The notes under the pieces were generated by a model. The model made no database searches and had not been told where the DNA came from. It was given only the letters and a program-made list of their open reading frames with translations. Positions 19,209-45,417 of a DNA stretch of 45,980 bases are shown piece by piece (position 1 is the stretch's first letter; every line of letters begins with the position of its first letter). Where the stretch lies: contig PLZD01000010.1 of NCBI GenBank assembly GCA_003151975.1, forward strand, positions 267,788-313,767, read 5' to 3'. The position numbers and the translations under genes were made by a program. The DNA comes from Elusimicrobiota bacterium (GTDB lineage: Bacteria > Elusimicrobiota > Elusimicrobia > UBA1565 > UBA9628).

Positions 19209-19215
19209 TTGCGCT

Positions 19216-19244
19216 ATTCTCCTCTTTCGATCCCCGCCGGTCAA
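19216..19244 (-). promoter_or_regulatory. Promoter of the alpha-2-macroglobulin gene
   Basis: On the minus strand TTGACC (19239-19244), 17 bases, GAGAAT (19216-19221), then the ATG 8 bases further on, giving a nearly leaderless mRNA. The -10 overlaps GGAG, so it could also be read as a ribosome-binding site with long spacing. Weak -10. Confidence 0.4.
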
Positions 19245-26355: not shown

Positions 26356-26992
26356 ACGGATAACCCTTATCGTTGGCGCCGCGCCGAGGAATCTGAGGAA
26401 GTTCGAGCAACGACTTACTCGCGACGCCCGGGATGTCTCTGAGAGTTTCCGCTAAGAAATCCCGCTCTCTATCGGCGTCCGGGTCGGGGATGTGAGATAG
26501 ATCGCGCCAGCGGACCGACTTGTCGTAGTTCCCGCTGCCCCACCAAAGCTCGCGCCCGCGCGCGTCGACGATCCCGGTCCGCCACAGCCGGAAGTGATGG
26601 CGCTCGAGCACGGGCCGCACGACGCGGACCCAGTTCATGTCTTGGTCGCGGCCCATGATCCGGTAATCGTTCATCGGAGGGAAACTGGTCAAGGTCTGAA
26701 AATCAAAAAATTCTTTCAATCCGGCCCGGACGCAGCCGCTGATCGTCAGCGGGATGCTCGTCCAGCCCGCCGCCGCGAGCGCCGAGCGCACTTGCTCGTC
26801 GGTTCCCACGAATAAAATGCCGAGCGGGTCGCCGGGCCGACCCAGGCGCCCTTCGTTGCGCGCGGGCAGCGCCGCGTAGACGTCGGAAAGGTTCGGACTG
26901 ACCGCGTCGGAGAACCGCGGGCGCGCGGGCCGAAGACGATCGGAATTAAGAAGAAGGGCGAGCAGCGGCAGGCCGAGGACGGCCCGTCTCAC
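26300..26992 (-). CDS. LssY_C-domain protein
   Basis: 230 aa. Starts with the GTG that overlaps the metG stop (GTGA) and has a short hydrophobic N-terminus (GLPLLALLLNS), which could be a signal peptide or anchor. The body has the LssY_C pattern: ILFVGTDEQVRSALAAAGW, MNDYRIMGRDQDMNWVRVV, RHHFRLWRTGIVDARGRELW and SHIPDPDADRERDFLAETL. This domain occurs next to PAP2 phosphatases in LssY-like proteins, or alone; its activity is unknown. Here no PAP2 domain is attached. Confidence 0.8.
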   Translation of the reverse strand: MRRAVLGLPLLALLLNSDRLRPARPRFSDAVSPNLSDVYAALPARNEGRLGRPGDPLGILFVGTDEQVRSALAAAGWTSIPLTISGCVRAGLKEFFDFQTLTSFPPMNDYRIMGRDQDMNWVRVVRPVLERHHFRLWRTGIVDARGRELWWGSGNYDKSVRWRDLSHIPDPDADRERDFLAETLRDIPGVASKSLLELPQIPRRGANDKGYPFTTDGRALLVELASPPGR

Positions 26993-28518
26993 ACCTTGCG
27001 CGGGAACATCGGCGGGCCCTTCTGGATCTTGCCGATGCCTTTGTCCTTGCCCGCGAGAATGTCCTCGGCGGAAAGCGCGTCGGGGTATTGGCGCACGCCG
27101 AGGCGCGCCTGCATCTCGGCGGCCTTGCGCGGCATGAAGGGCTCGATCCAGCCGCCGGTGATGCGCAGGCACCAGACCACGTCGAAGAGCAAAATCTTGG
27201 CCCGCTCGTGGTCGGCGGGCTCGGCGGACTTGAAGAGCTTCCAGGGCGCTTCGTCGTTGACGCGCTCGTTGAGCTTGCCGACGACCGACCAGATGACGTT
27301 GAGCGCGCCCGAGAAATCGAGCCGCTCCATGCAGTCCGCGTATTCCTTGGTGCGGTCGGCGACCTGCTTGGGGTAGAAATCCTTTTCGGGGTTCGGGCGC
27401 GTGGGAAGCTCGCCGTTCATGTTGCCGTCGATCAAATTCTCGACGCGGGAGACCAGATTTCCGAGGTCGTTGGCGAGGTCCGCGTTATAGCGCCGTTTCA
27501 ACCCTTCGAGCGAAAAATCTCCATCATTTCCGAAAGGCATCTCGCGCAGCAGGAAGAAGCGGAAGGCGTCGACGCCGAATTCCCTCGTGATCTCGTAGGG
27601 ATCGACGAAGTTGCCCTTCGACTTCGACATCTTCTGGCCGTCGACCGTCCACCAGCCGTGGGCGTATATTTTTTTCGGAAGCGGAAGCCCCGCGGCCATG
27701 AGCATCGCGGGCCAGATCGCCGCGTGGAACCAGTAGATCTCCTTGCCGACGATGTGCACGTCCGCGGGCCAGAGATCTTTTTCGTCGGCCGCGGCCGAGT
27801 AGTAGTTGAGCAGGGCGTCAAACCAAACGTAGACGGTATGCTCCGGGTCGCCTGGGACGGGGACGCCCCATTTGACCTTCGAGCGAGAGACCGAGATGTC
27901 GTTGAGGCCTTCCTTCACGCGGGAGAGAATCTCATTGCCGCGATGCTTGGGCGAAAGAAAATCCGGGTTGGCCTTGTAGTGCGCGAGCAGAGGCTCCTGA
28001 TACTTCGAGAGCTTGAAAAAATAATTGTCTTCCTCGACGAACTGCAGCTCCCGATGGCAGTCCGGGTTGGGGCACAGGCGCTTGCCCGTCTTGTGGTCGG
28101 GAGGAGCGTCCTGCTCCGTCCAGAACGTTTCGTCCGAGACGCAGTAGTAGCCTTTGTAGTGGCCCTTGTAGATGTCGCCGCTTTTCATCAGCGCGGCGAA
28201 GATCTCCTGGACCTTCTTCTCGTGGCGCGGCTCGGTGGTGCGGATGTAATCGTCGAAGGTGATGTCGAGATGCTTCCAGAGCTGGCGGAACTTGTCGGAG
28301 ACTTCGTTGGCGAACTCGATCGGCGTCTTGCCGGCTTCTTTTGCGGCCTGCTCAATCTTCAGCCCGTGCTCGTCGGTCCCGGTCAGAAAATGGACAGGAT
28401 TGCCGCGATGGCGGTGAAAGCGCGCGAGCACGTCGGCGGCCACCGTGGTATAGGCGTGGCCGATGTGCGGGGCCGCGTTGATGTAATAGATCGGCGTCGT
28501 GATGTAGTACTTTTTCAT
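26989..28518 (-). CDS. metG: Methionyl-tRNA synthetase (short form)
   Basis: 509 aa. The class I HIGH motif is HIGHAY in YYINAAPHIGHAYTT; KMSKS is present as GQKMSKSKGNF. A zinc-type knuckle (CPNPDC) sits in the connective insert. The C-terminal anticodon-binding helical domain is followed by no tRNA-binding extension, so this is the short form. Start is the ATG at 28518, directly after the palindromic repeat; an in-frame extension upstream would be translated from repeat sequence and is rejected. The gene is probably carried by read-through from tmk-holB. Confidence 0.96.
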   Translation of the reverse strand: MKKYYITTPIYYINAAPHIGHAYTTVAADVLARFHRHRGNPVHFLTGTDEHGLKIEQAAKEAGKTPIEFANEVSDKFRQLWKHLDITFDDYIRTTEPRHEKKVQEIFAALMKSGDIYKGHYKGYYCVSDETFWTEQDAPPDHKTGKRLCPNPDCHRELQFVEEDNYFFKLSKYQEPLLAHYKANPDFLSPKHRGNEILSRVKEGLNDISVSRSKVKWGVPVPGDPEHTVYVWFDALLNYYSAAADEKDLWPADVHIVGKEIYWFHAAIWPAMLMAAGLPLPKKIYAHGWWTVDGQKMSKSKGNFVDPYEITREFGVDAFRFFLLREMPFGNDGDFSLEGLKRRYNADLANDLGNLVSRVENLIDGNMNGELPTRPNPEKDFYPKQVADRTKEYADCMERLDFSGALNVIWSVVGKLNERVNDEAPWKLFKSAEPADHERAKILLFDVVWCLRITGGWIEPFMPRKAAEMQARLGVRQYPDALSAEDILAGKDKGIGKIQKGPPMFPRKV

Positions 28519-28526
28519 AAAAAACG

Positions 28527-28638
28527 TGGTGTCAGACGTTGAATCTTTTGTTTTGTTCAATCTTTGCGGCTAGAACGCTCGAAATTGAGAGCGATGGCAA
28601 AAGACTGAACATCCAAAAAGATTCAACGTCTGACACCA
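28527..28638. repeat. 112-bp palindromic element (MITE/REP-like)
   Basis: Perfect 23-bp terminal inverted repeats at 28527-28549 and 28616-28638, starting TGGTGTCAGACGTTGAATCT. The pairing continues imperfectly inside (TGTTCAATCTTTGC against a matching inner arm), and a short CGCTC/GAGCG stem tops it, so the whole can fold into one long hairpin. It begins 9 bases before metG and ends right at the holB stop (28639). This looks like a miniature inverted-repeat or REP-type element, with no coding capacity. No second copy is in the window. Confidence 0.8.
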
Positions 28639-29571
28639 TCATAATATTTCTGTCTCCAGGGCCGCCAACAAAAGCACGGTGCGCGGATCGGCGTTGGAGC
28701 GTAAGGCCTGCCGCAGCCGGCCGAGCTCGCGCAGAGGCCGCTCGACTTTTGAGAAACCGAGCTCGCCGCTCAGGTGGCGCATGCGCAGGTCCTGCGCGAG
28801 CGCGAAGATCGCCGACTCGACCTGCGGCCTGGCGAGATAGAGCTCCTTCGGCAGGCTTTCGGCGGCGTCGATGGCCGCGAGAGGAGACGATCGCAGCGAG
28901 TCGGCGTAGTCGGGGCCGGCGGCGAGCTCGAGCGCCCGGCTGACCGAGCCGTCGCACAGGCGCGCCAGGCGCTCGGCCTTCGGGGCGTCGGCGGCGTGCT
29001 CGCGCAGCAAGGACGCGATGATCGCGGGCGACAGCGGCGAGAATGAGACTGAAAAGCAGCGCGACTGAACCGTTTTGAGCATGCGGCCCTTCTGCGCGGT
29101 TACGAGAATCCAAAGGGTCTTGGCCTGCGGCTCCTCGAGGTTCTTGAGCAGGACGTTGGCGGCCGCGTCGGTCATCGTGTGGGCGTCGCAGATGATCGCC
29201 GCCTTCCAGCCGCCGAGCATCGACTGCATCTCCATGTCGCGGCGCAGGTGGCGGATCGTGTCGGCCTGCAGCAGGCGCTGCTTGGCCGTTTCGCCTTCCA
29301 CCAGTCCCGCCTGGTAGGCGGCGTCGACGAGCTTGACGTCCGGATGAAGTCCCTTGTCGATGCCCGCGCAGTCGGAACATTCTTGGCACGGCTCGCAGTC
29401 TTCTTTCTTTTGAGAGCAGAGCAGGGCCTTGCAGAACTCCTTGGCCATGAGCGTCTTCCCCACGCCTTCGAGTCCGGAAAAAATCATGGCCGACGGGATG
29501 CGGCCGCCTGCGAGCAGTCCCTCGAGTATTTGAACGGCGCGCTTCTGGCCTTTGACCCTGCCGAAGCTCAT
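28639..29571 (-). CDS. holB: DNA polymerase III delta' subunit
   Basis: 310 aa, clamp-loader AAA+ protein. Walker A GLEGVGKT (about 33-40), zinc module with cysteines in CEPCQECSDC, NLEEP and the SRC motif (VQSRCF). The C-terminal helical part matches delta'. It overlaps tmk by ATGA. The stop abuts the palindromic element. DnaX-family gamma/tau has similar motifs, but the length and the adjacent tmk favour holB. Confidence 0.92.
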   Translation of the reverse strand: MSFGRVKGQKRAVQILEGLLAGGRIPSAMIFSGLEGVGKTLMAKEFCKALLCSQKKEDCEPCQECSDCAGIDKGLHPDVKLVDAAYQAGLVEGETAKQRLLQADTIRHLRRDMEMQSMLGGWKAAIICDAHTMTDAAANVLLKNLEEPQAKTLWILVTAQKGRMLKTVQSRCFSVSFSPLSPAIIASLLREHAADAPKAERLARLCDGSVSRALELAAGPDYADSLRSSPLAAIDAAESLPKELYLARPQVESAIFALAQDLRMRHLSGELGFSKVERPLRELGRLRQALRSNADPRTVLLLAALETEIL

Positions 29572-30185
29572 CGTTTCAGGAACCGGCGCGCGACGGCGCC
29601 GAAGAGCGTTTCATGCAGCTCTTCCACGGGCTTGCGGCCGTCAAGCACGAGCGCGCCTTTGGGCGCGAGCTTGCGGTAGCCTTGGCGCACGCGGCGCCGG
29701 AAGGCCGCGGGCTCGTTTTCAAGCCGGTCGTGCCGGCGCTTGACGTCGCGGGTATCGAACTCGCCGTCGGGGATGTCGAAGACGACGGTGAGGTCCGGCT
29801 TCAAGCCGCCGGTCGCGAGCTCGTTGGCGCGGCCGACGACGGCCTTATCGATGCCGCGCGCGTAGCCCTGATAGACTTCGGTGGAAAGGATGTAGCGCTC
29901 GCAGACGACGAGCTTGCCCGCTTTGAGCGCGGGACGCAAGGTCTCCTCGGTGTGCTGCGCGCGCGCGGCCTCGTAGAGCAGAAGCTCGGCCAAGGGTTCG
30001 ACCTGATGCTTGGGATCGAGCAGGATGCGCCGGATCTCCTCGGCAAACGAGGTGCCGCCCGGCTCGCGCGTGTGCAGGAAGGGGATGCTCATTTTCTTGA
30101 GCCGCTCGACGAGCAGGCGTGCTTGCGTGGATTTGCCGGACTTGTCGGGGCCTTCGAGGACGAGGAAAACGCCGCTGCGCTTCAC
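29568..30185 (-). CDS. tmk: Thymidylate kinase
   Basis: 205 aa, makes dTDP from dTMP. P-loop GPDKSGKST (12-20), TREPGGT (39-45) and a LID region with Arg-rich helices are seen. The usual DR(Y/F/H) element reads CERY here. GTG at 30185 is the start: TGC-TAGAAT lies 7 bases upstream. First gene of the tmk-holB-metG-LssY_C unit. With thyX, it gives dTTP. Confidence 0.95.
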   Translation of the reverse strand: MKRSGVFLVLEGPDKSGKSTQARLLVERLKKMSIPFLHTREPGGTSFAEEIRRILLDPKHQVEPLAELLLYEAARAQHTEETLRPALKAGKLVVCERYILSTEVYQGYARGIDKAVVGRANELATGGLKPDLTVVFDIPDGEFDTRDVKRRHDRLENEPAAFRRRVRQGYRKLAPKGALVLDGRKPVEELHETLFGAVARRFLKR

Positions 30186-30226: not shown

Positions 30227-32692
30227 GTGGGAATCCTCCTCTATCTCGCCGTCTTCGTCTGCGGCTTCGCGAGCCTGATTTATCAGGTCGTCTGGGAGCG
30301 CGGCCTTGCCCTCGCGCTCGGCGGCGGGGCCTACGCCGTGGCCGCGGTCATCAGCGTCTTCATGGCGGGTCTGGCGCTGGGCAGCATGGCGGGCGGAGCC
30401 GCCGCCGACAAGGTCAAACGCCCCTTGGCTTGGGCGGCCGGGCTCGAGGCGTTTGTCGCGGCCTGGGCGCTGGCGCTGCCGCTGCTGTGGCTGCCCGGCT
30501 GGCCCAGCATCGTCCTGCTGCTGCCGCCGACATTCTGCATGGGCGCGTCCTGGCCGCTGGTCTGCGTCGCGCGTGTGGGGCGGAGGGCCTCTCCCGGAGC
30601 CCGGACGGCCGGGCTCTATGCGGCCAACACCCTGGGCGCGTCGCTGGGGTGTTTTGCGGCCGGCTTCGTCATGATCAGGACGCTCGGGGTCTCGCGCACC
30701 AACGAGGCCGCAGCCGCGCTCAGCTGCATTGGTGCGGGCCTGCTGTGGCTGGCCTCGTCTAAGGCCGCGGGAGAGCCGGTCATGGCGTCGGCGCCGGGCG
30801 CAGGAGAGTTGTCGCCGAAAGTCTTGGCCGGCGTGCGGTTGGCCGCCGCGCTGACGGGCTTTGCCGCGCTCGGATACGAGATCTTGTGGTTCCGGGCGCT
30901 GAGGTTTGTCATCGGCAGCACCGCGTACTCCTTCTGCACGATGCTGACAGCACTTCTGGCGGGGTTGGCACTCGGCGCGCTGATAGTGCGCATCATTCTG
31001 CGCCGGGGGGGCTCCGCGCTCGGCTGGTTTGCCGCAGCCCAAGCCGCGCTGGGCATTCTCAATGTCGTCAGCGTGCGGCTCTTCGCGCACACCTGGATCA
31101 TCGCCGGAGTCATCCTCAATGTGTTGGCCCGCTGGATCGCCGTTTCGCCGCAAAGCTGGCCGGCCGCGCGCGCCGTAAACTTCGGACTGGCCTTCTTGGT
31201 CCTGCTCGGCCCGGCCGTGTGCCTGGGCTGCCTGTTCCCGCTGTCCAACGAGCTCCTCGTGCGGGACCCACGGCACCCCGGGCGGAGCCTGGGCGCCGCC
31301 TATTTCCTGAACACGGCCGGCTGCGCGCTGGCTCCGGCCTTCGCGACCTTCTACCTCATCCCGGCCTTGGGGATCAACGTCTCGCTGCTGACTTTCTCGG
31401 CGCTCAATCTGGCGATTGGGTCATCCTTCGCGCTGTGGGCGCGCCGGGACTTGCGCGCTCTCGCCGCGATGGGGCTTGCCGCGGCGGCCGCCTTGTGGCT
31501 GCTGCCCGAGGGCTTCGTGCTCAAATCCGCCGACCCGTCCCTGCTCTACGAACGCGACGGGGTGCTCGCCACGATCCGCGTGTTCCGCCGGGGCGGCCTG
31601 AAGTTCCTGTCGACGGACAACTTCTACGTACAAGGATCGGACCCGACCGATCCCGCGGTCAATCCCAAGCGGTTGGGGCTCATGCCCTATCTCCTCTCTC
31701 CGAAGCTGAGGCTGGACCGCGTCCTTCAGATCGGTCTCGGGACCGGGATCAACCTCGGCGCGCTGGCGAAGGCGCCCGCGAGTGCCATCGACGTCGCCGA
31801 GATCGTGCCCGAGCTCGTCGAGGCCGACGCGCTTTTCGAGGCGGAGAACCAAGGGGTCCTGCGTGATGCGCGCGTGCGCGTGTTCGCGGAGGACGGACGC
31901 CGGTTCGTGGCGCGCACAAAGGACAAATACGACCTCATCGTCGGCGACCTGTTCTTTCCGGATCATGCGGGCGCGGGAAACCTGTACAGCGCCGAGCATT
32001 TCCGCAACTGCCGCCGTGCCCTGGCCCCCGGCGGCATCATGGTGCAATGGATTCCCCTGCACCAGGTCTCCGTCGCGGGCCTCAAGGTCATCGCGGCGAC
32101 CTTCGCGGACTCCTTCCCGCACGCGGCGCTTTGGTGGGGCACGCTCTCGGATCGCCTGCCGGTCGTGGGGCTCGTGGGCAGCGAAATGCCGCTGATTCTC
32201 GACGAGAAAACTCTGCGCGCAAAATCGGCTTTGCTCGCCTCCGACATGAAGGAGGTCCTGTGGAGCGAGCCGGACTGTTTGCGCGGCAACTTCATCGCGG
32301 GCGACGCCGAGCTGCGGGCTTTCGCCGGGACGCCGCCGCTGAACACGGACGACCGTCCGTGGATCGAATTCCAGACGCCTCGGACCCAGGCCAACGACTG
32401 GGACCGCTCCGCGATCGCCGCCAAGCTCCTCACGCTGGCCGGCGCCATGGAGACAGAGTCAGGACCCGCGGCTTCCTCGCGCCGGGCTCACCAGGCGGTA
32501 TTGGCTGGCCTCGCCATGGCCGTGCGGGGAGACGGGTCCCTCGCGCTGTCCCGGATCGACTCCGGGTTGCGGCTGGCGCCGCGCTGCGCGGAGCTTGCGG
32601 CCGTGCGCAGAGAAGCCGAGGCGGCTATTTCCAGCGCGCGAGGATCGTCTGGAGCGCCTGGCGCGTCGGCTCGTCGAGCGGCGCACCCTTGA
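30227..32692 (+). CDS. Membrane-fused spermidine-synthase-like protein
   Basis: 821 aa. The N-terminal half (about 1-420) has 10-12 membrane helices and starts GFASLIYQVVWERGLALALG, the typical start of MFS/spermidine-synthase fusions. A SAM/dcSAM-type domain begins near 500 (LQIGLGTGINLGAL), with acidic VAEIVPELVEA and the base-bearing loop IVGDLFFPDHAGAGNLYS. In true aminopropyltransferases the loop is DSTDP-like; here an Asp is kept but the rest differs, so activity is uncertain. The C-terminus is helical, TPR-like. Start is GTG at 30227 with a weak TTTAAT 14 bases upstream. It converges on a paralogue with 68 bases overlap. Confidence 0.82.
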   Translation: MGILLYLAVFVCGFASLIYQVVWERGLALALGGGAYAVAAVISVFMAGLALGSMAGGAAADKVKRPLAWAAGLEAFVAAWALALPLLWLPGWPSIVLLLPPTFCMGASWPLVCVARVGRRASPGARTAGLYAANTLGASLGCFAAGFVMIRTLGVSRTNEAAAALSCIGAGLLWLASSKAAGEPVMASAPGAGELSPKVLAGVRLAAALTGFAALGYEILWFRALRFVIGSTAYSFCTMLTALLAGLALGALIVRIILRRGGSALGWFAAAQAALGILNVVSVRLFAHTWIIAGVILNVLARWIAVSPQSWPAARAVNFGLAFLVLLGPAVCLGCLFPLSNELLVRDPRHPGRSLGAAYFLNTAGCALAPAFATFYLIPALGINVSLLTFSALNLAIGSSFALWARRDLRALAAMGLAAAAALWLLPEGFVLKSADPSLLYERDGVLATIRVFRRGGLKFLSTDNFYVQGSDPTDPAVNPKRLGLMPYLLSPKLRLDRVLQIGLGTGINLGALAKAPASAIDVAEIVPELVEADALFEAENQGVLRDARVRVFAEDGRRFVARTKDKYDLIVGDLFFPDHAGAGNLYSAEHFRNCRRALAPGGIMVQWIPLHQVSVAGLKVIAATFADSFPHAALWWGTLSDRLPVVGLVGSEMPLILDEKTLRAKSALLASDMKEVLWSEPDCLRGNFIAGDAELRAFAGTPPLNTDDRPWIEFQTPRTQANDWDRSAIAAKLLTLAGAMETESGPAASSRRAHQAVLAGLAMAVRGDGSLALSRIDSGLRLAPRCAELAAVRREAEAAISSARGSSGAPGASARRAAHP

Positions 32693-35555
32693 GCCCGCGC
32701 TCGAAGGCCCGTCGCGCGGCGGCCTTCTTGCCTTCCCCGAGATAAAGGCTTCCCGCGCTCATGTTGGCTCGCGGATTGTAGGGGTCGAGCCTCAGGCCGT
32801 GCTCCGCCCACGACAAGGCTTTCCCCGTGTCGCCGATCATGGCGTGAAGGTCGGCGAGATGGAAGTACGCCGGCGCGAAATCCGGGTGCCTGGTGATGAC
32901 GGCCAGCAGAATCGTCTCGGCCTCGTCGGGCCGGCTCGCGCGGATGAGCGCCTGGGCGTAGTCGGTGCCCGACCGCGCGTCGGCGGGCGCCCGCGCGTAG
33001 GCCTCGTGCGCCAGCCGAAGCCCCCGGGGAAGATCGCCCAGCGCGATGCTGGCCTCCCCGACCACGTGCTCCACGACGCCGGTGTCCAGCGCGATCTTGT
33101 CCGGGAAGAGCTCGGAGGGCGTCTCCTCGGCGCGGGCGTTCTCGATCAGGTCGTAGATACCCCGCTCGTCGCCGGCGTAGAGGCTTTGCGGCGCCGAAAA
33201 CTCGAGGCTGGGATATTCGTCCGTGTTGAGGCGGGCGCCGGCGGCCGCGCGGCGGAAGGCGCGGTCTCCGAGCGCGAACTCTCCGGCGAGCAGCTCGAAG
33301 GGCGCGGAGATGCGGCCGGGCCCCGCCTTGGCGCGGGGGGGTGCCGCGGGCTCCGGTCCCTCCGGCGGGGGCCGCGTCGGCCCGCCGGACTCCTTTCCCA
33401 GCTTGAGCGAAGCGAGCGCCTCCCGCAGCGGACGGCTCCGGTCGACGAGGCCGTCGGCGTAGGCCGCCGCCGGCCAGCCGTCGTTGGAGCCAGCCATCAC
33501 GTAGTCGAACGGCGATCCGGCGCGAAAAAGCAGGACGCGGGGAAACACCGCGGCAAACGTCGTCAGCACGGAGCGGAAGTCTCTCTGCGACAGCCCGTAG
33601 GCGTTGAGCCACTGGCAGAAGACGCCGTGCGGCGCCAGGCGCGCGCGCGCGTTCTCGAAGTTCTCCCGGGTGTAGAGGCCGGCGGCGCCCGAGATCCAGG
33701 GATTGGACGGCTCGGCGGCGATGATGTCGTAGGCGTCGGGATCCGAGGCCAGAACCCGCCGCGCGTCGTCGAAGACGATCGAGACCCGCGGGTCTTGGAG
33801 TATGCCGCCGTTGACGGAGTCGAAGAGCTCGGCCGCTTCGGCGACGCGCGGCTCGAGCTCCACGATCCGAATGGTCCTCATGCGGTCCGATTGGCTCAGC
33901 GCCTGCGCCGTCATCCCGGTGCCCAGTCCCACGACGAGCGCGCGGCTGGCCGTGGGATTGATCAGCAGCGGAACGTAGCCGATGACGAGCTGGGTCAACC
34001 GGTCAGTGACCGCCGAGGCGTCGGCCTTTCCGTTGATTTCGAGACGTCGTCCTCCGACGTCGTCCTTGACGGCCACGGTGGCGGAGATGCCGTCGGCGTA
34101 GTAGACGATGGGCGCGCTCGCGGCCAGGGCCTTGAAGTGCGCGAAGGAACTGGCTTCCCTGTATATCGCACCGTAGAGGTAGACGCCTGACGACAGCACG
34201 GCCGGGTCCAGGGCCTTCGGCAAGAAGACGACGGCGCCCGCCAGCGCGGCCGCAAACCCCAGCTGCCGCCGGCCCGCGGCGGAGGTCCGGATCCTGCGCA
34301 AGGCCACGGCGCCGGCGGCGGCGACGACGATCAGCGCCGCGCCGCGGATCGTGCGCTCCATGCCCCAGGCCGGCAGGAGATAGAAGGCGGCCGACGCTGC
34401 GCCCGCGATGCAGCCGCCCGCGTTGGTCCCGTAGAAGATCCCGACCTCGGAGGCGGACTGCTGTTCGCACGCCAGGCCGAAGAGCCAGGGCAGAGAGAGC
34501 CCCATGACGACGCACGCGGGCAGCGCGATGGCGGCGCAGAAGAAGGCCGACATGACGAGGTGTCCGCCGTAGGAGAAGCGGGGATCGGGCAGGATGAACG
34601 CGCCGAAATAGACGAGCCGGTCGTAGCCGTAGAGGCCGGCCAGCAGGCTCGCGGCCAGCCCGAACTGAAGCCACACCCAGCCGTCGGCGTCGATCGGCCA
34701 GCGTCGGCTGGCGGCGTTGTAGGCCAGGCTTCCTAGCCCCAATCCGAGCACGATCACGGCGAGCATCAGGCCGACCGTCTGGATCGAGGAGCCCAGCAGG
34801 AGTTGAGCGAGGCGCAGCCAGCTGATCTCGCAGGCCATAGCGATCGCTCCGCTCAAGAAAGACAGTCCGACAAAGCCCGCGCGCAGCGTTCCGCCGCCGG
34901 CCCCGCGCTTGCCGAGCGCGGGGGCGGGTGCTACCGTCGCCGCGACGATGGCGGCCGAGAAGCTTAAACCCGCGGCCGCGCGCAGGCTGCCGCCGACGCC
35001 GATCGAGGGGGGGAGCGCTACTCCCGCCAGCAGGCAGCCCAGCACGCCGCCGAGAGCATTCCAGCCGTAGACGAGGCCGAAATCGAGGCCCGAATTAGCC
35101 GCGGCATCCTTCGCACGGTCGCGGGCGCATAAGACGAGCAGCGGCAAAGTCAGTCCCATCAGGAGCGTCCCCGGCGCCAAGGCCGCGATGAAGAGCGCAA
35201 GCCACGCCGCGCCGCTGGTCCCCGTAAAGCCGCCGACGCTCGGGTGAATGCCGGCCCACCGCGCGACGAAACCAAGCCAGCCGGAGGAGAGCCAACCGAA
35301 CAGGCCGATGCCGATCTCGGCCAGAGCGTAGAACCTCAGCAGGAACTCCGGGCGGCGCCGCGCCAGCGGATCGGCGGCCAGGCTGCCGATGGCCAGGCCC
35401 GCCATGAAGGCGGCCGACGCCGTGGCGACCGCCAAAGTCGTGTGCCCGAAGGTCTCGGTGAGCCGCCGGCTCCACAAGATTTCGTAGATGAGGCCCGCCG
35501 CGCCGGAGAGGAAGGCGCAAAGGGCCAGGCGCCGGCGATCGTCGAGGCGGGTCAC
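32625..35555 (-). CDS. Membrane-fused spermidine-synthase-like protein with C-terminal TPRs
   Basis: 976 aa, from GTG at 35555 overlapping the upstream pilin stop (GTGA). N-terminal membrane domain (ALCAFLSGAAGLIYEILWSR at about 10-29). The nucleotide-binding core is near 543 (VVGLGTGMTAQALSQSD), then RIVELEPRVAEAAELFD and IIAAEPSNPWISGAAGLY, where the base Asp of active enzymes is replaced by Glu. The last 190 residues are TPR-like (DYAQALIRASRPDEAETIL; AYFHLADLHAMIGDTGKALS). It is the final gene of the minor-pilin operon. Enzymatic polyamine synthesis is doubtful; modification of an exported substrate or a non-enzymatic role is possible. Confidence 0.85.
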   Translation of the reverse strand: MTRLDDRRRLALCAFLSGAAGLIYEILWSRRLTETFGHTTLAVATASAAFMAGLAIGSLAADPLARRRPEFLLRFYALAEIGIGLFGWLSSGWLGFVARWAGIHPSVGGFTGTSGAAWLALFIAALAPGTLLMGLTLPLLVLCARDRAKDAAANSGLDFGLVYGWNALGGVLGCLLAGVALPPSIGVGGSLRAAAGLSFSAAIVAATVAPAPALGKRGAGGGTLRAGFVGLSFLSGAIAMACEISWLRLAQLLLGSSIQTVGLMLAVIVLGLGLGSLAYNAASRRWPIDADGWVWLQFGLAASLLAGLYGYDRLVYFGAFILPDPRFSYGGHLVMSAFFCAAIALPACVVMGLSLPWLFGLACEQQSASEVGIFYGTNAGGCIAGAASAAFYLLPAWGMERTIRGAALIVVAAAGAVALRRIRTSAAGRRQLGFAAALAGAVVFLPKALDPAVLSSGVYLYGAIYREASSFAHFKALAASAPIVYYADGISATVAVKDDVGGRRLEINGKADASAVTDRLTQLVIGYVPLLINPTASRALVVGLGTGMTAQALSQSDRMRTIRIVELEPRVAEAAELFDSVNGGILQDPRVSIVFDDARRVLASDPDAYDIIAAEPSNPWISGAAGLYTRENFENARARLAPHGVFCQWLNAYGLSQRDFRSVLTTFAAVFPRVLLFRAGSPFDYVMAGSNDGWPAAAYADGLVDRSRPLREALASLKLGKESGGPTRPPPEGPEPAAPPRAKAGPGRISAPFELLAGEFALGDRAFRRAAAGARLNTDEYPSLEFSAPQSLYAGDERGIYDLIENARAEETPSELFPDKIALDTGVVEHVVGEASIALGDLPRGLRLAHEAYARAPADARSGTDYAQALIRASRPDEAETILLAVITRHPDFAPAYFHLADLHAMIGDTGKALSWAEHGLRLDPYNPRANMSAGSLYLGEGKKAAARRAFERGLKGAPLDEPTRQALQTILARWK

Positions 35556-37150
35556 GGAAAACTTGTCGAGACCTCGTTCCAGGAAATGCGCGACAGCGGG
35601 GGGTAGAGGTAGCGCACGCCCGCGCCGATTCCTTGATCGAAGTAGATGACGTGGGTGTCGCCCCCGTTGCCGATGTTGGTCCCGTTGGGTCCGACGAGGA
35701 CTTGACCGGAGATGGCGTTGTAGCCGAGCGCGCAGTTGAAGCCGTTGACGTACAGAAAGCCGCGGAAAGAAAGACCCGTGTTCTTGCACTGATCGAAAGG
35801 CCGGGAGGGTCTGGCGGATACGTCCGAGAAGGCCGCGTAGCCGGGCCAGGCATGCGCGCCCCCGTTGATGTCATAGTAGTTCTTGGGGGGATTGGAGCTG
35901 TTGGGGACGATGTAATTCGCCAGCAGCGTCTCGTGGCCGCCGTCGCCCGGATATCGTTGGGTGCCGGAGTAGGCCCCGCCTTCACCGGGCCCGGTCGGGT
36001 TGACGTAGGTGCCGGCCGTGTACTGCTGCCAGGCGTTGGAGGGCGGCTGCAGGGGGTAGGCGTACCAGCCGTTGGAGTGGAGGTGGAGGTTGCCCGAGAA
36101 GAGGACCATCGCGCCGACAATGATAGAGCCGGGTCCGTCGCAGACCGTGAGGTTGTCGTTCTCGAAGAAGATGGCGCATGTGGCGCAGTTGACGAAGTAG
36201 TTGCCCCAGTAGAGGTCGTTGCCGCCCGAGTTGTTGCAGTTGCTGCCGCCGCTGGCCACCGGGTAGCCGCCCACTCCCGCTCCGTTGAAATAGCCAGTAG
36301 GGCCGTTGGTCTGGGGGTTGAGGGCGTATATCGCGCTGCGGCCGCCATCGGAGACGTGGCCCGCGTTGTCGTAGGGTATCGGGATGGTGGAGTTTTGGGC
36401 CAGCGCCCGGTAGTAGTTGAAGTTGAGGACGGGTATGGTCGGCAGGTTCTTGTCGAAGGCGCAATAATTCTTGGTCGCGTCGCACAGCGGCGGGCCGTTG
36501 GCCGTCTTCCACGGGGAGACCTGTCCCGCGGCGTCCTTGTAAGGATAATAAGGGATCGTCGGCGAGCCCACGCCGCCCGTCGCGGTGCCGGCCGAGTTGC
36601 ACCCGGTGAAGGCGGTGTAATTTCCCCCGCCCGCGGTCGTCTGGGTGATGCCGGAGTAGGAGGTGATCTGGCCCCAATAGACGTAGAAGTCCGGGTTGAG
36701 GTTGAACAGGCCCGAGGAGATCAAGCCGCTCTGGAAGGCGATGCCCGAATACACGGCCTTGATGCCGCGCGACTGGTTGCTGGTCGTATCGTGGCCTTTG
36801 GTGAAGACGGTGACCTGGCTTGGCCCGGGGCCGGAAGAGATGTTGATATTGTAGGTGCCGCCGCTGACGTCGGTGTACACCACCTCTCCCGAGTAGCCCG
36901 CCACCTGCGCTCCGGCCAGCTCGTTGTACCAGGCCATGGTCGAGGACACGAGGTCCCAGATGGCGCGGTCTTGGCCCGCTTCCGCGAGGTGGTAGGCCTT
37001 GGTCGTGCTCATTTCTTTGACCGACCACTTCCCCTCGTTTTGCACCTTGGTCACGAGGTAGGGCACCATGATCAGCGCGATCAAGACCAGCATTAAAGCC
37101 AGGACCAAGGTCTGGCCTTTTTCATCGGGTCGGCGGACTCTCGTGTTCAT
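35552..37150 (-). CDS. PilX/GspK-like minor pilin component
   Basis: 532 aa. After a basic, short leader (RVRRPDEKG) comes the hydrophobic helix QTLVLALMLVLIALIMVPYL with no Glu at position 5, as in PilX and GspK. Helix region with KEMSTTKAYHLAEAGQDRAIW follows, matching PilX N-terminal parts. The long C-terminal region is Gly/Tyr/Asn-rich and beta-like. It lies third in the pilin operon and overlaps both neighbours by 4 bases. Likely a minor pilin that starts or caps fibres. Confidence 0.78.
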   Translation of the reverse strand: MNTRVRRPDEKGQTLVLALMLVLIALIMVPYLVTKVQNEGKWSVKEMSTTKAYHLAEAGQDRAIWDLVSSTMAWYNELAGAQVAGYSGEVVYTDVSGGTYNINISSGPGPSQVTVFTKGHDTTSNQSRGIKAVYSGIAFQSGLISSGLFNLNPDFYVYWGQITSYSGITQTTAGGGNYTAFTGCNSAGTATGGVGSPTIPYYPYKDAAGQVSPWKTANGPPLCDATKNYCAFDKNLPTIPVLNFNYYRALAQNSTIPIPYDNAGHVSDGGRSAIYALNPQTNGPTGYFNGAGVGGYPVASGGSNCNNSGGNDLYWGNYFVNCATCAIFFENDNLTVCDGPGSIIVGAMVLFSGNLHLHSNGWYAYPLQPPSNAWQQYTAGTYVNPTGPGEGGAYSGTQRYPGDGGHETLLANYIVPNSSNPPKNYYDINGGAHAWPGYAAFSDVSARPSRPFDQCKNTGLSFRGFLYVNGFNCALGYNAISGQVLVGPNGTNIGNGGDTHVIYFDQGIGAGVRYLYPPLSRISWNEVSTSFP

Positions 37151-37653
37151 GGGTTCATGATCCTGACCGAGCTGATGGCCATCTGCAGGGCCGTGGTCCG
37201 TCCGGAATAGGTTTTCTTCTGCAGCGTCACCGAGATCGAGAGGACCGTGTTGATGTCGGTCTCCGGATAGCTGAAGGCGATGTACTGCAGGTTTTTCGTG
37301 AGGATCGTATGGTCGTTGCCGACCTGCATGGTCAAGGTGTTGTTGGTCTGGGTGTAGGTCACCGTGCTGCCGTCGACGGTGAGGAAATTGATCTGGGAGT
37401 ACGGCGGCTGGCCTGGACCCTGGCTGATGTTGACCGTCGCCGCCGAGGCCTGGCGCAGATGCCGGTCCAAGTTGTCGAGTACGGTGCGCAGGTCGCGCTG
37501 GATCTCGGTGCGCGCGTCCATCTGGGTAAAGAACTGATAGGACGTCTTGAACAGGGTCGTCGCCATGGCCGAGACGATGCCGATGATGGCGACGACGAGC
37601 ATCACCTCCATCAGCGTGTACCCGCGGCGCCGTCGATCGCTTTTCTTCACCAT
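37147..37653 (-). CDS. Prepilin (PilW/PulJ-like minor pilin)
   Basis: 168 aa. Class III-like leader KKSDRRRRG followed by YTLMEVMLVVAIIGIVSAM, with Glu at mature position 5 for prepilin-peptidase processing. A helical stem (IQRDLRTVLDNLDRHLRQA) and a beta-rich C-terminus resemble PulJ/PilW. The start overlaps the stop of the giant prepilin by 7 bases; its stop overlaps the PilX-like gene. Confidence 0.85.
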   Translation of the reverse strand: MVKKSDRRRRGYTLMEVMLVVAIIGIVSAMATTLFKTSYQFFTQMDARTEIQRDLRTVLDNLDRHLRQASAATVNISQGPGQPPYSQINFLTVDGSTVTYTQTNNTLTMQVGNDHTILTKNLQYIAFSYPETDINTVLSISVTLQKKTYSGRTTALQMAISSVRIMNP

Positions 37654-40316
37654 TGCAGGTTTGCGGTGGCCGTCTGTCCTCCGACGACGTTGACCGTCGT
37701 GTGCACCTTCTGGAAGCTCGGGGCTCCCGTGCTCGTGAAGGTCGTGTACCAGCCGTAGAGATTGAACGTGTCCGAGGCGGTGCTCGCGCGCACGTTGAAG
37801 TTATAGGTGCCGTCGGAGAGGGACGAGGCCATGTAGTAAGGCGTGGTCATGAGCACCGCCGTGGAGATGAGCGGGGGATAGAGGCCGTTGATCGTCCCGG
37901 TCGTCGCGACGATAAGCACGCCGGTCGTGATCGGGGCGCCGATGATCCCGCAGCTGGCCGTAGAACAGGTCGCCTTCCCCGAGATTTGGCCGTAGGCTCC
38001 CTGGACCGTGAACGTGCCGATGGAGACGTTGGCGCCCGCCGTGACCGCGCACAGGATCGCGCCCTGGGCGCTGTTGCATGTGCCCAAAGCCAGCGCGGTG
38101 TTGCTTTGATCGGGGTCGAGCGCCAGCTCGAATGTGTAGGTTCCGGTCGAGAGGTTGTTCATGATGAACTTGCCGTTGGCGCCCGTGACCACTTGGCCCA
38201 CCGCGTTGCCGTTGCCATCGACGGCGTTGACGACGACGCCGGGATACGCATTGGACAGGCTGGTGTTGACCACGAGGCCGTTGACGCGTCCCGCTCCAGA
38301 GAGAACGAAGTTGATGCCGTTGGTCTGTTGGCCCGGGAGGACGACCACTTGGTCGATCTGTGCGCTCGTATAGGTAGAGTTGACGCTGTTCTGGTTGGCG
38401 ATGACAGAGTAGGTGTTGGCGGGGGCGGAGATATTGTAGTACCCGGCGGCGCTGGTGTTGACCGTATTGCCGCCGTGCACCGTGACCTGGATGGCGGAGA
38501 GCGGAATGCCGTTGGGGTCGGTGACCTGCCCGTTGATGAGGCCGTTGGAGGTCGTGTTGGTCAAGAGCGCGTTGTAGAAGCCCGTCATCGGCCATTGCGG
38601 CACGGTCATGACGTTGGGCACCGTCGTGCTCATGTTCGGCGTCAGCACGGCGACCGAGCTGATCATCAAGTAGCTAAATCCCGTCGAAATCTCGATGTTC
38701 CAAGTCCCCGTGGCGATGTTGACCAAGGTAAAGGTCGCGTAGCTGAAGCCGTTGGAGGTGATCGCGTAGGCCGTCGCCGACGCCGAGAGGCCGTCGTTGC
38801 AGGTGATGACCGCGCCCACGGCCGGAGTGCCGCTGACGACGGTGGCCGTGCTCGACATGAAGCGCCCGGACCGCGGAGTCCAGATCGCGGCAGAGGTGTC
38901 GACGAAATTGAAGCTGCTCTGGTTCGTATCGTAAGCCGGCCCAAGAGAGTAATTGACGGTGCCCGTGCTCGCCATGCGCACGAGCTCATCGCCGCGCGGC
39001 ATCCCCGCGGAGTAATAGAAGCAGTTCCCGGAGCATGGCGAGGGGTCCGAGACGCCGTTGGACCAGCCCACGCCGTCCATCGTTCGATTGAGGTAGTCCG
39101 TCAGCCAGACGCCGCCGCTGTGCCCCGCGCAGGGCGCGCGGAACTGGCCGTCTAGGCATTGGCCGCTGCCGGAGCCGCTGCAGTCCGGGCCGGCGGAGGG
39201 CAGCGAGCCGCTATTCGCCGTTCCGTCATTGATCGCGTTCTTGAAATAGGCGTCGGCGAAGACCATTTGGCCGTTCACCATGAAACTCGGCGTGTCGGCG
39301 ATGAGGTAGTAGCCGTAGGATTGGATCGTCTGCGTGCTGTAGGTCATCGCGATGTCGCTGCAGGTGTAGCCCACCAAGCTCGTGAAGTTGAACTTGACCG
39401 TGTGCGAGGAGGCGCTGCCGACGAACAGAGACGAGGTCGTGGGATTGAAGAGCTCCACGTACTGGACGTCGATGTTCGAGTAGGGGCCGAGATGCGCCTG
39501 CACGGTGGACGAGACCACTTGGCTGATCAGGAGGTTGTTGTTGACATAGACGGCTCCCGAGACTTTGGTGATACCCATCTCGTGGAGGGTGAAGTTCGCG
39601 GTCTGGAGGGTGCCGTTGACGATGCTGAATGGTCCCAGGGTCTGCGGGAAATAGCCCGGCGCTTGCGCGGTCACGCTGAAGTTCCCGGGGGTGGCCGACA
39701 TCACGTAATTGCCGCTGTTGTCGGAAAAATCGTGGAAGATGGCGTCGCCCTTGCAGTAGACGTCGGAGCCACCGATGGGCTGGCCCGTGGTGAAGTCGGT
39801 CACGGTGCCGACGAAGCCGGAGGTGTCGGAGTATTGCGCGCTCGCCATCAGGTTGATCAGCGTATTCCTGTGCCAGGTCGTCCCGATCTGCCAGACCGTG
39901 GTGATCGTGATGCGCTTGAGGCCGGTGTCCATGCTGTCCGGAGGAACCTGGACGAGATTTCCGTTGTCGGAGAGGACGCGCTCGACGTAGGTCAGGCGCG
40001 TGAAAGTCTTATTGCCGATCTGGAGGGTCGAGGGCGGGAAATTCACGCTGTCGTAGGGGATGGCGGGGGAGAAGTTGGTGTTGTACGAGGGCAGCGAGGT
40101 CGGGATGATCTGGAAGTAGCTGTTGTTCTTGTAGATCTCGATGTACTCCTGGGACGCGTTGGTCGCCAAGGTCGTGGTGCGGTGCATCTCGGCGGCCCGC
40201 GTGATGTAGGTGAAAGTGCCGACCAGGCCCAGGGCCGCGACCGAGAGGATGACCACCGTGATCATCAGCTCGACCAGCGTGACGCCGCGCGTGCCCAGGG
40301 GCTTCAAGGCTCTCAC
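37647..40316 (-). CDS. Giant prepilin with lamin-tail-like and carboxypeptidase-regulatory-like domains
   Basis: 889 aa from GTG at 40316. Leader MRALKPLGTRG, cleavage before VTLVELMITVVILSVAALGL with Glu at mature position 5, so it should enter a type IV pilus or type II secretion pseudopilus. Domains: first carboxypeptidase-regulatory-like repeat at about 165-240 (GTVTDFTTGQPIGGSDVYC); a lamin-tail-like part about 270-360 (VQYVELFNPTTSSLFVGSAS); further carboxypeptidase-like repeats after 590 (GLINGQVTDPNGIPLSAIQV, GRVNGLVVNTSLSNAYPGVV). Ordinary prepilins are under 300 aa, so this is likely a tip adhesin-type pilin. A promoter at 40324-40352 fixes the start. Confidence 0.85.
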   Translation of the reverse strand: MRALKPLGTRGVTLVELMITVVILSVAALGLVGTFTYITRAAEMHRTTTLATNASQEYIEIYKNNSYFQIIPTSLPSYNTNFSPAIPYDSVNFPPSTLQIGNKTFTRLTYVERVLSDNGNLVQVPPDSMDTGLKRITITTVWQIGTTWHRNTLINLMASAQYSDTSGFVGTVTDFTTGQPIGGSDVYCKGDAIFHDFSDNSGNYVMSATPGNFSVTAQAPGYFPQTLGPFSIVNGTLQTANFTLHEMGITKVSGAVYVNNNLLISQVVSSTVQAHLGPYSNIDVQYVELFNPTTSSLFVGSASSHTVKFNFTSLVGYTCSDIAMTYSTQTIQSYGYYLIADTPSFMVNGQMVFADAYFKNAINDGTANSGSLPSAGPDCSGSGSGQCLDGQFRAPCAGHSGGVWLTDYLNRTMDGVGWSNGVSDPSPCSGNCFYYSAGMPRGDELVRMASTGTVNYSLGPAYDTNQSSFNFVDTSAAIWTPRSGRFMSSTATVVSGTPAVGAVITCNDGLSASATAYAITSNGFSYATFTLVNIATGTWNIEISTGFSYLMISSVAVLTPNMSTTVPNVMTVPQWPMTGFYNALLTNTTSNGLINGQVTDPNGIPLSAIQVTVHGGNTVNTSAAGYYNISAPANTYSVIANQNSVNSTYTSAQIDQVVVLPGQQTNGINFVLSGAGRVNGLVVNTSLSNAYPGVVVNAVDGNGNAVGQVVTGANGKFIMNNLSTGTYTFELALDPDQSNTALALGTCNSAQGAILCAVTAGANVSIGTFTVQGAYGQISGKATCSTASCGIIGAPITTGVLIVATTGTINGLYPPLISTAVLMTTPYYMASSLSDGTYNFNVRASTASDTFNLYGWYTTFTSTGAPSFQKVHTTVNVVGGQTATANLQW

Positions 40317-40323
40317 GCTAATG

Positions 40324-40352
40324 AGGATACTCCCTTTAGCGCGAATGCGCAA
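40324..40352 (-). promoter_or_regulatory. Promoter of the pilin operon (leaderless)
   Basis: On the minus strand TTGCGC (40347-40352), 17 bases, TATCCT (40324-40329), then GTG at 40316 after 8 bases. An upstream TTG that would lengthen the gene lies within the -35 and cannot be the start if this is correct. Confidence 0.6.
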
Positions 40353-40364
40353 TGAAACTTCCGG

Positions 40365-41645
40365 TTAACTCTTATCCGCAAGGGGGAGGATGAGGCTGAC
40401 TTGGGAGCCGCGCCCGGGGCCGGGGCTTGCGACCTTGATTTCGCCGCCGTGCTCTTGGGCGATCCAGCGCACGATGCTCAAGCCCAGTCCGTGCCCTTCT
40501 TCGTCGGCCTTGGAGGTCGCGAAAGGCTCGAAGAGGCGCTCGAGTCTCTCACGGCTCATGCCCTGGCCGGTGTCGGCGAAGCTTACGACGACGTCCTTGC
40601 GCCGAATTTCCATGCCGACCATGAGCTTTCCGCCCGAGGGCATCGCGTCGATGGCGTTGTTGAGGATGTTCGTGAAGGCCTGGAGCAGATGCCGCGGGCT
40701 GCCGAGGACCTCGCAATCGGGACGCACGCGCGCGTCGACCGCCACCCCGCGCTCGTCCATGCGGATCTTGAGCATCTCGAGGGCCTGCTCGAGGGGCTCG
40801 TCGAGGCGCAGGGGCGCGAGCTCCAGGCGCGAAGGCTTGACGAACTCGAGAAAGTTCTGGAGTATGGCCGCGGCGTGGTCGGCCTCCTGGGCGATCACTT
40901 TGAGCTCGGCCGAAGGCTTCTTGCCCTTGAGCAGCAGGGCCTGCGCGGACTCCGCGTTGAGCACGACCGTGCCCAGAGGCGTCTTGGCCTCGTGGAGCAC
41001 GGCGGCCATCGCGTTGCCCACCATCGAGAGGCGCTGCATCCAGGCCAGCCGCTCTTCGTAGTGGCGGGCGGTCTGCTGCTCGATGGTGGCCGCGTAGCTG
41101 GCGATGTGCACGCCGAAAAGCGCGATGAGCAGGAAAAGCGATAAGTGCAGCGGGAAAACGTGGGCGACGTCCTCGGAGGACGGGAACGCCAGAAGGGCGT
41201 AGACGACGGTCACCGCCAGGCTCGTGGCAAAGACGAGCAGCGGTTTGCGCAGCAGGCTCGCGCCCAGGATAAAGAGCAGCAGCGCGGTGTAGACGTGCAC
41301 GCCGGTGCCCTCCGCGAGGCCGAGCACGGCGAGGCTTGCTCCGACGTCGAGCAGGAAGGTCCCGGGCCCGGGCGCCGGCGCCGGCTTGCGTCTGCGGCGG
41401 GCGGCTAGGAACAGCCCCACGACGGCGGCGGCGTACGCCGCCGGGATTGCGGCGATCCAGGGAGAGCGGTCCGCTGACCACGCCGCCTGCGCCGCCTCGA
41501 AGCCGAGTATGGCCGCCAGCATCAGGCGCAGGACGAGGAATCCCTTGTGACCGCCGATGGAGGCCTCGAGCAGCCGGCGCTCCGCCGGCAAAAATCCCTT
41601 ATCGAGCGGGCTGCCGATGCCAACGGATTCTTCGCTGCCGGCCAT
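40365..41645 (-). CDS. Membrane sensor histidine kinase
   Basis: 426 aa. N-terminal region (about 35-185) with several helices (LRLMLAAILGFEAAQAAW, GASLAVLGLAEG, SLFLLIALFGVHIAS). H box reads AAVLHEAKTPLGT with His218, unlike the usual SHE-L/I-RTPL. The ATPase domain has NILNNAIDAM (326-335), DTGQGMS and GHGLGLSI; it resembles NtrB-type kinases. The divergent regulator (41675) is its probable partner. ATG at 41645 has TAAAAT ending 7 bases upstream (41652-41657). It lies just upstream of the pilin operon on the same strand. Confidence 0.9.
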   Translation of the reverse strand: MAGSEESVGIGSPLDKGFLPAERRLLEASIGGHKGFLVLRLMLAAILGFEAAQAAWSADRSPWIAAIPAAYAAAVVGLFLAARRRRKPAPAPGPGTFLLDVGASLAVLGLAEGTGVHVYTALLLFILGASLLRKPLLVFATSLAVTVVYALLAFPSSEDVAHVFPLHLSLFLLIALFGVHIASYAATIEQQTARHYEERLAWMQRLSMVGNAMAAVLHEAKTPLGTVVLNAESAQALLLKGKKPSAELKVIAQEADHAAAILQNFLEFVKPSRLELAPLRLDEPLEQALEMLKIRMDERGVAVDARVRPDCEVLGSPRHLLQAFTNILNNAIDAMPSGGKLMVGMEIRRKDVVVSFADTGQGMSRERLERLFEPFATSKADEEGHGLGLSIVRWIAQEHGGEIKVASPGPGRGSQVSLILPLADKS

Positions 41646-41674
41646 GCGCGCATTTTATATCATATCGCGGTTCC
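41646..41674. promoter_or_regulatory. 29-bp divergent promoter between the kinase and the regulator
   Basis: The gap is AT-rich in an otherwise GC-rich region. Minus: TAAAAT (41652-41657) 7 bases before ATG 41645. Plus: TATCAT (41658-41663) 12 bases before ATG 41675. There is no room for ordinary leaders or for two -35 elements outside the coding regions. Confidence 0.5.
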
Positions 41675-42370
41675 ATGGGGCAGAAGATACTGTTGATCGA
41701 GGATAACGCCGCCTTCCGCAAGACCGTCGCGCGGATTCTGTCCGAGGGCGGCTATGAGGTGCGCGAGTCGGCGACCGGGAAAGCCGGCCTCATCGACGCG
41801 CTCGAAGGCCAGCCCGATCTGGTGATCCTCGACCTGGTCCTGCCCGGCATCAAGGGAACGGAGGTCTGCGCCCAGCTCAAACGCTGGCCCCAGACGGTCG
41901 CCATCCCCGTCCTGATCCTGACCGGCAACGACAACGACGGGCAGGACATCGCCTGTCTCGACGTCGGCGCCGACGATTATCTGACCAAGCCGGTGAAGAC
42001 CGAGAGGCTGCTCGCCCATTGCCGCGCCCTTCTGCGGCGGACGGCGCCGGCAGGCGGCGCCCCTTCCCGTCTGACGGTGGGCTCGCTGTCCCTGGATTAC
42101 ACGCGCAAGCTCGTCGTCCTCGGCGGCAAGGAGCATCCGGAGCTCACCCCGAAGGAGTTCGGCCTGCTCTACGCCCTGGCGGTGTGCAGTCCGGAGCCCA
42201 TCGACCGCGCCACCCTGTACCGCGAGGTCTGGGGCATGGAGCCTCCGTCGGACGGAAGCCTCAAGACCGTCGACGTGCACGCCCGGCGCGTCCGTCTCAA
42301 GCTGGGTTGGTCCGCGGACGAATGGCTGTCCTTCGTGCACGGCCGGGGCTACCGCGTAGCCGCAGCCTAG
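41675..42370 (+). CDS. OmpR-type response regulator
   Basis: 231 aa. Receiver domain with IED (8-10), Asp53 (LVILDLVLPGIKG), a Thr in LILTGND and Lys in YLTKPVK. A winged-helix DNA-binding domain follows from about 135 (LTPKEFGLLYALAVCSPEP, DVHARRVRLKLG, VHGRGYRVAA). ATG at 41675. Partner of the divergent kinase by position. Its TAG stop shares the palindrome CTAG with the convergent 42367 gene. Confidence 0.94.
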   Translation: MGQKILLIEDNAAFRKTVARILSEGGYEVRESATGKAGLIDALEGQPDLVILDLVLPGIKGTEVCAQLKRWPQTVAIPVLILTGNDNDGQDIACLDVGADDYLTKPVKTERLLAHCRALLRRTAPAGGAPSRLTVGSLSLDYTRKLVVLGGKEHPELTPKEFGLLYALAVCSPEPIDRATLYREVWGMEPPSDGSLKTVDVHARRVRLKLGWSADEWLSFVHGRGYRVAAA

Positions 42371-45329: not shown

Positions 45330-45388
45330 TCTTGGGTCTCCTGTGCTCTCAAATTGTTGCCAAGCGGGTCGCGCCGGGACTGTCATCA

Positions 45389-45417
45389 AGTGTAACAGCA
45401 ATGCTCGATTTTGTCAA
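45389..45417 (-). promoter_or_regulatory. Promoter of nrdJ
   Basis: On the minus strand TTGACA (45412-45417), 17 bases, TACACT (45389-45394), preceded by TGT: full -35 and extended -10. The predicted start is about 45382, giving a leader of about 53 bases before GTG 45329. One of the strongest matches in the window. Confidence 0.75.

Follow-up and report, generated by a model that had tools for sequence, protein, structure and literature searches.

The window analysed here is a stretch of 45,980 nucleotides from an Elusimicrobiota bacterium, and its features are listed in Table 1 together with a gene of sister genomes. Four co-directional, overlapping open reading frames (ORFs) are located on the minus strand, which encode a giant prepilin (A), a second prepilin (B), a PilX-like protein (C), and a large membrane protein (S1). 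The overlaps of 7 bases (A/B), 4 bases (B/C, ATGA), and 4 bases (C/S1, GTGA) that the original prediction had described are borne out by the ORF coordinates. The four overlapping genes are real, but S2, a convergent gene that shares 68 bases with S1 at their 3′ ends, the tmk-holB-metG genes beyond S2, and the histidine kinase upstream of A with its divergent response regulator had been overlooked. A further ORF of 2019 aa occurs elsewhere in the window (13185-19244, minus strand).

Table 1. Coordinates of the features in the window and of Gt in two sister genomes
Feature	Position	Strand	Basis or remark
A (giant prepilin, 901 aa)	37647..40352	-	start TTG 40352; likely true start GTG 40316
B (prepilin, 168 aa)	37147..37653	-	N_methyl; conserved after A
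C (PilX-like protein, 532 aa)	35552..37150	-	homologues in class genomes
S1 (976-aa MFS/spermidine-synthase-fold/TPR membrane protein)	32625..35555	-	start GTG 35555
S1 residues 1-425, MFS fold, 12 helices	34281..35555	-	VIA-align Z 31.3 to SLC37A4, 368 residues aligned, rmsd 3.5
S1 residues 426-444, probable 13th transmembrane helix	34224..34280	-	hydropathy, loop charge bias, helix in model
S1 residues 450-810, spermidine-synthase fold, predicted periplasmic	33126..34208	-	VIA-align Z 28.5 to 1uir
S1 EPSNPW motif, residues 615-620	33696..33713	-	at position of spermidine synthase catalytic Asp motif; alignments
S1 residues 825-975, TPR repeats	32631..33083	-	Pfam TPRs; helix pairs in model
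S2 (821-aa fused MFS/spermidine synthase)	30227..32692	+	NF037959 104.2 bits
Sensor histidine kinase (HK)	40365..41645	-	HATPase_c 89 bits, HisKA
Response regulator	41336..42370	+	divergent from kinase; true start inside ORF; matched by profile of response regulator beside trio in L089
tmk, holB, metG	26989..30185	-	profiles; usual right-hand neighbours of A-B-C trio
Ribonucleotide reductase large chain	42810..45401	-	PF02867 410 bits; usual left-hand neighbour in the window's family
Gt	L101:12674-14380; L088:10192-11904		membrane protein after trio in sister genomes

A single promoter at 40324-40352 had also been proposed for the four genes. It was rejected because it is absent from the output of the sigma-70 scan and is badly sited relative to the start codon, as the proposed -10 element (40329-40324) would set the transcription start on the likely start of A. 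The HK gene ends only 12 bases ahead of the TTG of A. The GTG codon at 40316 is in frame in A, gives an 11-residue leader (MRALKPLGTRG, followed by VTLVE), and is likely the better start. A transcription unit comprising HK-A-B-C-S1 is more likely.

Both A and B exceed the N_methyl cut-off (21.9 and 34.1 bits, respectively), that is, the prepilin cleavage/methylation motif is present. A also contains three stretches of CarboxypepD_reg (82.9 bits in Pfam), and B has a GspH/ComGF-like N terminus, its matches to GspH and ComGF being below cut-off. No Pfam match was found for C of the window, and two of its homologues (L156 and L045) match PilX_N (PF14341) with E values of 7.6e-4 and 1.7e-3, below cut-off. 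Among 147 genomes of the Elusimicrobia class, homologues of A occur in 93 and those of C in 87, while B has matches in 136, many of which are weak N-terminal matches. Homologues of the three genes are adjacent to one another in dozens of relatives, and therefore this arrangement is not due to chance; the trio constitutes a minor-pilin cassette conserved in Elusimicrobia. In the window's family, A, B, and C usually come after ribonucleotide reductase and are themselves followed by tmk, holB, and metG; the profile of the reductase, labelled W533, was placed upstream of A in relatives when the trio regions were labelled by profiles. The cassette resembles minor pilin operons of the pilVWX/GspHIJK type in its order (prepilin, prepilin, PilX-like) and overlapping genes, but differs in the length of its first prepilin (901 aa), in the carboxypeptidase-regulatory domains of that protein, and in the S gene that closes the operon. 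A locus may also contain two trios: those of L082 and L083 converge, those of L086 diverge, and L089 and L099 have them in tandem.

S1 matches PF01564 (46.1 bits) and TPR_19 in Pfam, with further TPR matches to TPR_14 and TPR_2. Both S1 (52.4 bits) and S2 pass the 40-bit cut-off of NF037959, the family of fused MFS/spermidine synthases, and S2 as well as residues 450-810 of S1 match PDB entries in phmmer searches, those of S1 being aminopropyltransferases. The AlphaFold2 model of S1 (pLDDT 86.6, pTM 0.87) shows an MFS fold that precedes a spermidine-synthase fold, as in the NF037959 family; S1 differs from that family in its additional TPR tail, its position in a pilin operon, and the EPSNPW sequence that replaces the catalytic Asp motif. 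No pilus role is named in the family record. With regard to topology, the predicted cytoplasmic loops of 23 homologues contain approximately 2-4 Lys/Arg each and the periplasmic ones mostly fewer than one. Helix 426-444 of S1 is hydrophobic and nearly uncharged, with an Arg-rich loop ahead of it; from this charge bias and the single hydrophobic helix, the synthase domain and the TPRs are predicted to be periplasmic.

The resemblance to SpeE (TIGR00417; PDB 1uir and 6qmm) lies in the fold of residues 450-810 (Z about 28). However, S1 is membrane-fused and scores far below the equivalog cut-offs (54.6 versus 249.55 bits for TIGR00417 and 103.6 versus 472 bits for PRK03612), and the Asp positions of the catalytic motif and glycine loop are altered: in alignments, the GGGDG loop and the D-x-x-D-P motif of true spermidine synthases are absent from S1, which has GLGTG and EPSNPW. 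Since the catalytic motifs are replaced, S1 is probably not a spermidine synthase. The spermidine-synthase-like core and TPRs of the original prediction are thus supported by PF01564, the TPR matches, and the fold, whereas the term aminopropyltransferase is doubtful for a protein that has not kept these motifs. EPSNPW is invariant in A2, and the replacement residues of the active site and pocket are conserved within the S family (the MFS/spermidine-synthase-like proteins), which suggests an active enzyme with a different reaction. Unlike S1, S2 retains Asp at the catalytic position (GDLFFPD).

The position directly after C was compared among approximately 90 trio regions, in which genes were labelled by profiles; gene calls in the other genomes are heuristic, and S is cut off by the contig end in several of the S-linked contigs. 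In many trio loci, C is directly followed by tmk. A co-directional S directly follows C in eight of approximately 85 loci, namely the window, L156, L117, L136, L128, L100, L146, and L121 (in the last, the open frame begins within C and the true start of S was placed just after C), and S is located between C and tmk in the window, L156, and L079. One response regulator gene separates C from S in L147 and L164, in L045 S comes after a gene named Gt, and L079 and L149 have S on the opposite strand. Only about 0.07 co-directional S neighbours would be expected among 85 slots, given a background of approximately 0.16% of genes that is approximate and generous in that every match was taken as a gene. 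The binomial P is about 7e-15 for 8/85 and about 2e-7 when collapsed to 3/15 families, with relatedness only partly corrected. Chance parking of S after C was rejected on these counts, bearing in mind the related lineages and approximate background.

The conserved four-gene order that had been anticipated was therefore recovered well above expectation, but not as a general rule. A membrane gene among random neighbours, with the pilins lacking it, had been named as the pattern speaking against a link, and part of it was indeed seen: most A-B-C trios are without S, and most S homologues are found elsewhere, for example beside NamZ or MltA. Because S follows the trio far above chance and recurs at pilin loci in other phyla, the S-pilin linkage is real but optional. 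In a sister family, close S1 homologues adjoin the NamZ exo-muramidase (L035:2852-7011 and L037:3943-9295), and L037 also has the MltA lytic transglycosylase.

In a tree of 82 S proteins, a sample chosen partly for pilus linkage, this linkage needs 11 changes, at least eight of which are forced by supported branches. Separate places are occupied by S1 with L079, by L156 with L117, and by two long-branched groups whose deep position is unsure (L128/L100/L146/L149 and L164/L147/L121/L045). Catalytic motifs also differ among lineages, with GLGTG and EPSNPW in S1, GCGDG and DLPDA in L128, and GSGS and DIAGP in L164. Taken together, the separate places and differing motifs indicate that at least three S lineages occur in the slot and that S came to lie at pilin loci on more than one occasion, in different lineages. 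A single S inherited vertically along with the trio was rejected because the tree needs several linkage changes, the long branches leaving its deep parts unsure.

A different protein, Gt, takes the place directly after C in eight loci (L088, L090, L092, L093, L097, L101, L105, and L127) and lies slightly further on in five (L045, L118, L119, L120, and L122). No Pfam match was found for the Gt members of L101, L088, L118, and L045, and that of L101 had no NCBIfam match either. Its model (pLDDT 73, moderate confidence) matches STT3, PglB, and AglB, with VIA Z of up to 19.1 over 454 residues and 16.6 for PglB, and Gt is thus a predicted oligosaccharyltransferase-fold protein. A convergent gene overlaps Gt, by profile in L101, L105, and L127 and by gene order only in L088, L092, and L097, an arrangement that resembles the S2-S1 overlap; in L101, this gene encodes a membrane/TPR protein. 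Other polytopic enzymes at pilin loci (TMTC-like or Wzy_C) carry C-terminal TPRs like those of S1 (L284:6416-8155, L101:14295-15992, and L171:6716-9091).

For other phyla, the analysis covered 80 S loci from a collection-wide scan, a class-wide search around L171 (Methylomirabilota), and larger regions. Pilin loci with S were detected in Methylomirabilota, where S is located between pilA and pilD, as well as in Rokubacteria and Glassbacteria, and the genomes concerned contain many further S copies away from pilins. A prepilin gene is immediately upstream of S in L171, and prepilins immediately follow S in L203, L190, and L244. In L171 and L281, the order is pilS-pilR-large membrane gene-pilA-S-ABC ATPase-permease-(gene)-pilD, the large membrane gene of L171 encoding Wzy_C and TPR. 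L287 contains three prepilins, an ABC ATPase, two genes, S, and pilD, and S adjoins pilD in L284 and L286. Four prepilins follow S in L190 and L244, in the latter succeeded by a PilX_N protein, and in L203 S is located between a PilX_N gene and the prepilins. Pfam confirmed the prepilin of L171, PilD of L171 and L287, the ABC ATPase of L287, the permease of L282, and PilX_N of L203 and L244; the remaining pilus genes of these non-Elusimicrobia loci were named by their sequence starts. The order in Myxococcus-type pil clusters is pilS-pilR-pilA-pilG-H-I-pilD, and pilS, pilR, pilA, the ABC ATPase, the permease, and pilD are similarly arranged in Methylomirabilota, where, unlike in those clusters, S is inserted between pilA and pilD.

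Since unrelated versions of S recur beside pilus genes in several phyla, S is probably a pilus-modifying or pilus-assembly protein, seemingly an undescribed one. The S-pilin association is real and wider than originally assumed, and a functional link of S to pili is considered likely. Judged by gene order and predicted fold, the slot after C is an optional place for polytopic membrane enzymes, which would be translated together with the pilins, and it is occupied by several unrelated S lineages and by one oligosaccharyltransferase-fold protein. The preferred reading (probability approximately 0.4) is that these are interchangeable, pilin-modifying envelope enzymes, of which S would be the MFS/spermidine-synthase-like occupant. 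S1 would then most likely act in the envelope: its MFS half might move or hold a small donor, its predicted periplasmic synthase-fold domain might transfer a group to pilin domains exposed there, and its TPRs might dock the acceptor. The group is probably not aminopropyl put on putrescine, because the motifs for that reaction are gone. One argument against this reading is that a donor would have to be exported for a SAM-type enzyme to work in the periplasm. That the link runs through modification of pilins rather than assembly is put forward tentatively, at somewhat less than even odds. More speculative, and on the unlikely side, is a new class of type IV pilin modification, in which MFS/spermidine-synthase-fold proteins would bring a donor, either an amine or of the nucleotide type, through the inner membrane for the periplasmic synthase-like domain to alkylate pilins, with the slot elsewhere filled by oligosaccharyltransferase-like enzymes.

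Pilin O-oligosaccharyltransferases (TfpO/PilO, TfpW, and PglL) are membrane enzymes with extracytoplasmic active sites, some of which are encoded right beside pilA. Such recurrent genomic linkage to pilin genes is also found for S; in sister genomes, the slot of S1 is taken by the oligosaccharyltransferase-fold Gt, and the gene ahead of pilA in L171 encodes a Wzy_C protein. Unlike these enzymes, S1 is predicted to be neither GT-C nor Wzy_C but MFS plus a spermidine-synthase fold, so that it would not belong to the TfpO/PglL kind by fold, though it may work alike.

Of the roles originally offered for the membrane protein, modification and assembly are both plausible, and the latter provides the best rival, if an unlikely one: S1 would be a pilus assembly or stability factor, with a TPR tail like that of PilF/PilW/Tgl and with membrane and synthase-fold parts that serve as a scaffold and transfer nothing to pilins. 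The TPR tail itself, the location of S in the main pilus operons of Methylomirabilota, and the below-cut-off matches of the Methylomirabilota TPRs to PilW/PilF and Tgl models are in keeping with such a role; however, the TPR matches are generic, the slot occupants of L128 and L164 (approximately 510-560 aa) have no TPR match, and catalytic-pocket residues are strongly conserved across the S family. A further rival, in which the target of S1 is a different component of the envelope or surface (polysaccharide, lipid carrier, or peptidoglycan) and S1 is only co-expressed with pilins, is rather unlikely. S copies in the same order do adjoin the peptidoglycan enzymes NamZ and MltA as well as peptidases, but independent arrivals at pilin loci are repeated in several phyla.

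A cytoplasm-facing polyamine/SAM-related enzyme that has no pilus role and is parked in a permissive gap between cassette and tmk appears improbable. The gap is variable and takes other genes, and S is missing from most trios, yet the frequency of S after C exceeds its share of genes, translation overlap occurs, the same association is seen in unrelated pilin loci elsewhere, and the canonical aminopropyltransferase motifs are absent. Polyamine sensing, in which S1 would bind polyamines and tune piliation, had also been suggested and is very improbable. Apart from the fold resemblance and the kinase and regulator nearby, nothing speaks for it; the residues of spermidine synthases that bind putrescine and decarboxylated SAM are not kept, the kinase is present also at trios without S, and the idea was rejected on the active-site residues.

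In the openly licensed literature, no paper was found that ties the fused MFS/spermidine-synthase family to pili or gives it a role. GSU2502, annotated as a spermidine synthase, is adjacent to omcT/omcS judging by the locus numbers, and in one Geobacter mutant (PMC10599522) it decreases along with them. Multihaem cytochromes, an idea taken from GSU2502, were rejected as a general partner of S, as no neighbour enrichment was detected (8/583 versus 16/1313 genes). The family is common and is annotated as polyamine enzymes. Its repeated link to pilins in at least four phyla is a concrete lead on its function, suggests that the label spermidine synthase is misleading for many annotated proteins, and points to a step of pilin modification or assembly that has yet to be described.

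An HK gene precedes the trio in several relatives. Because a kinase/regulator pair recurs beside the trio in several genomes, the two proteins probably control the operon. A divergent histidine kinase/response regulator pair adjoins the trio in the window (40365-42370), L089, L099, L156, and L117, and in L089 and L099 such a pair is placed between the two trios.
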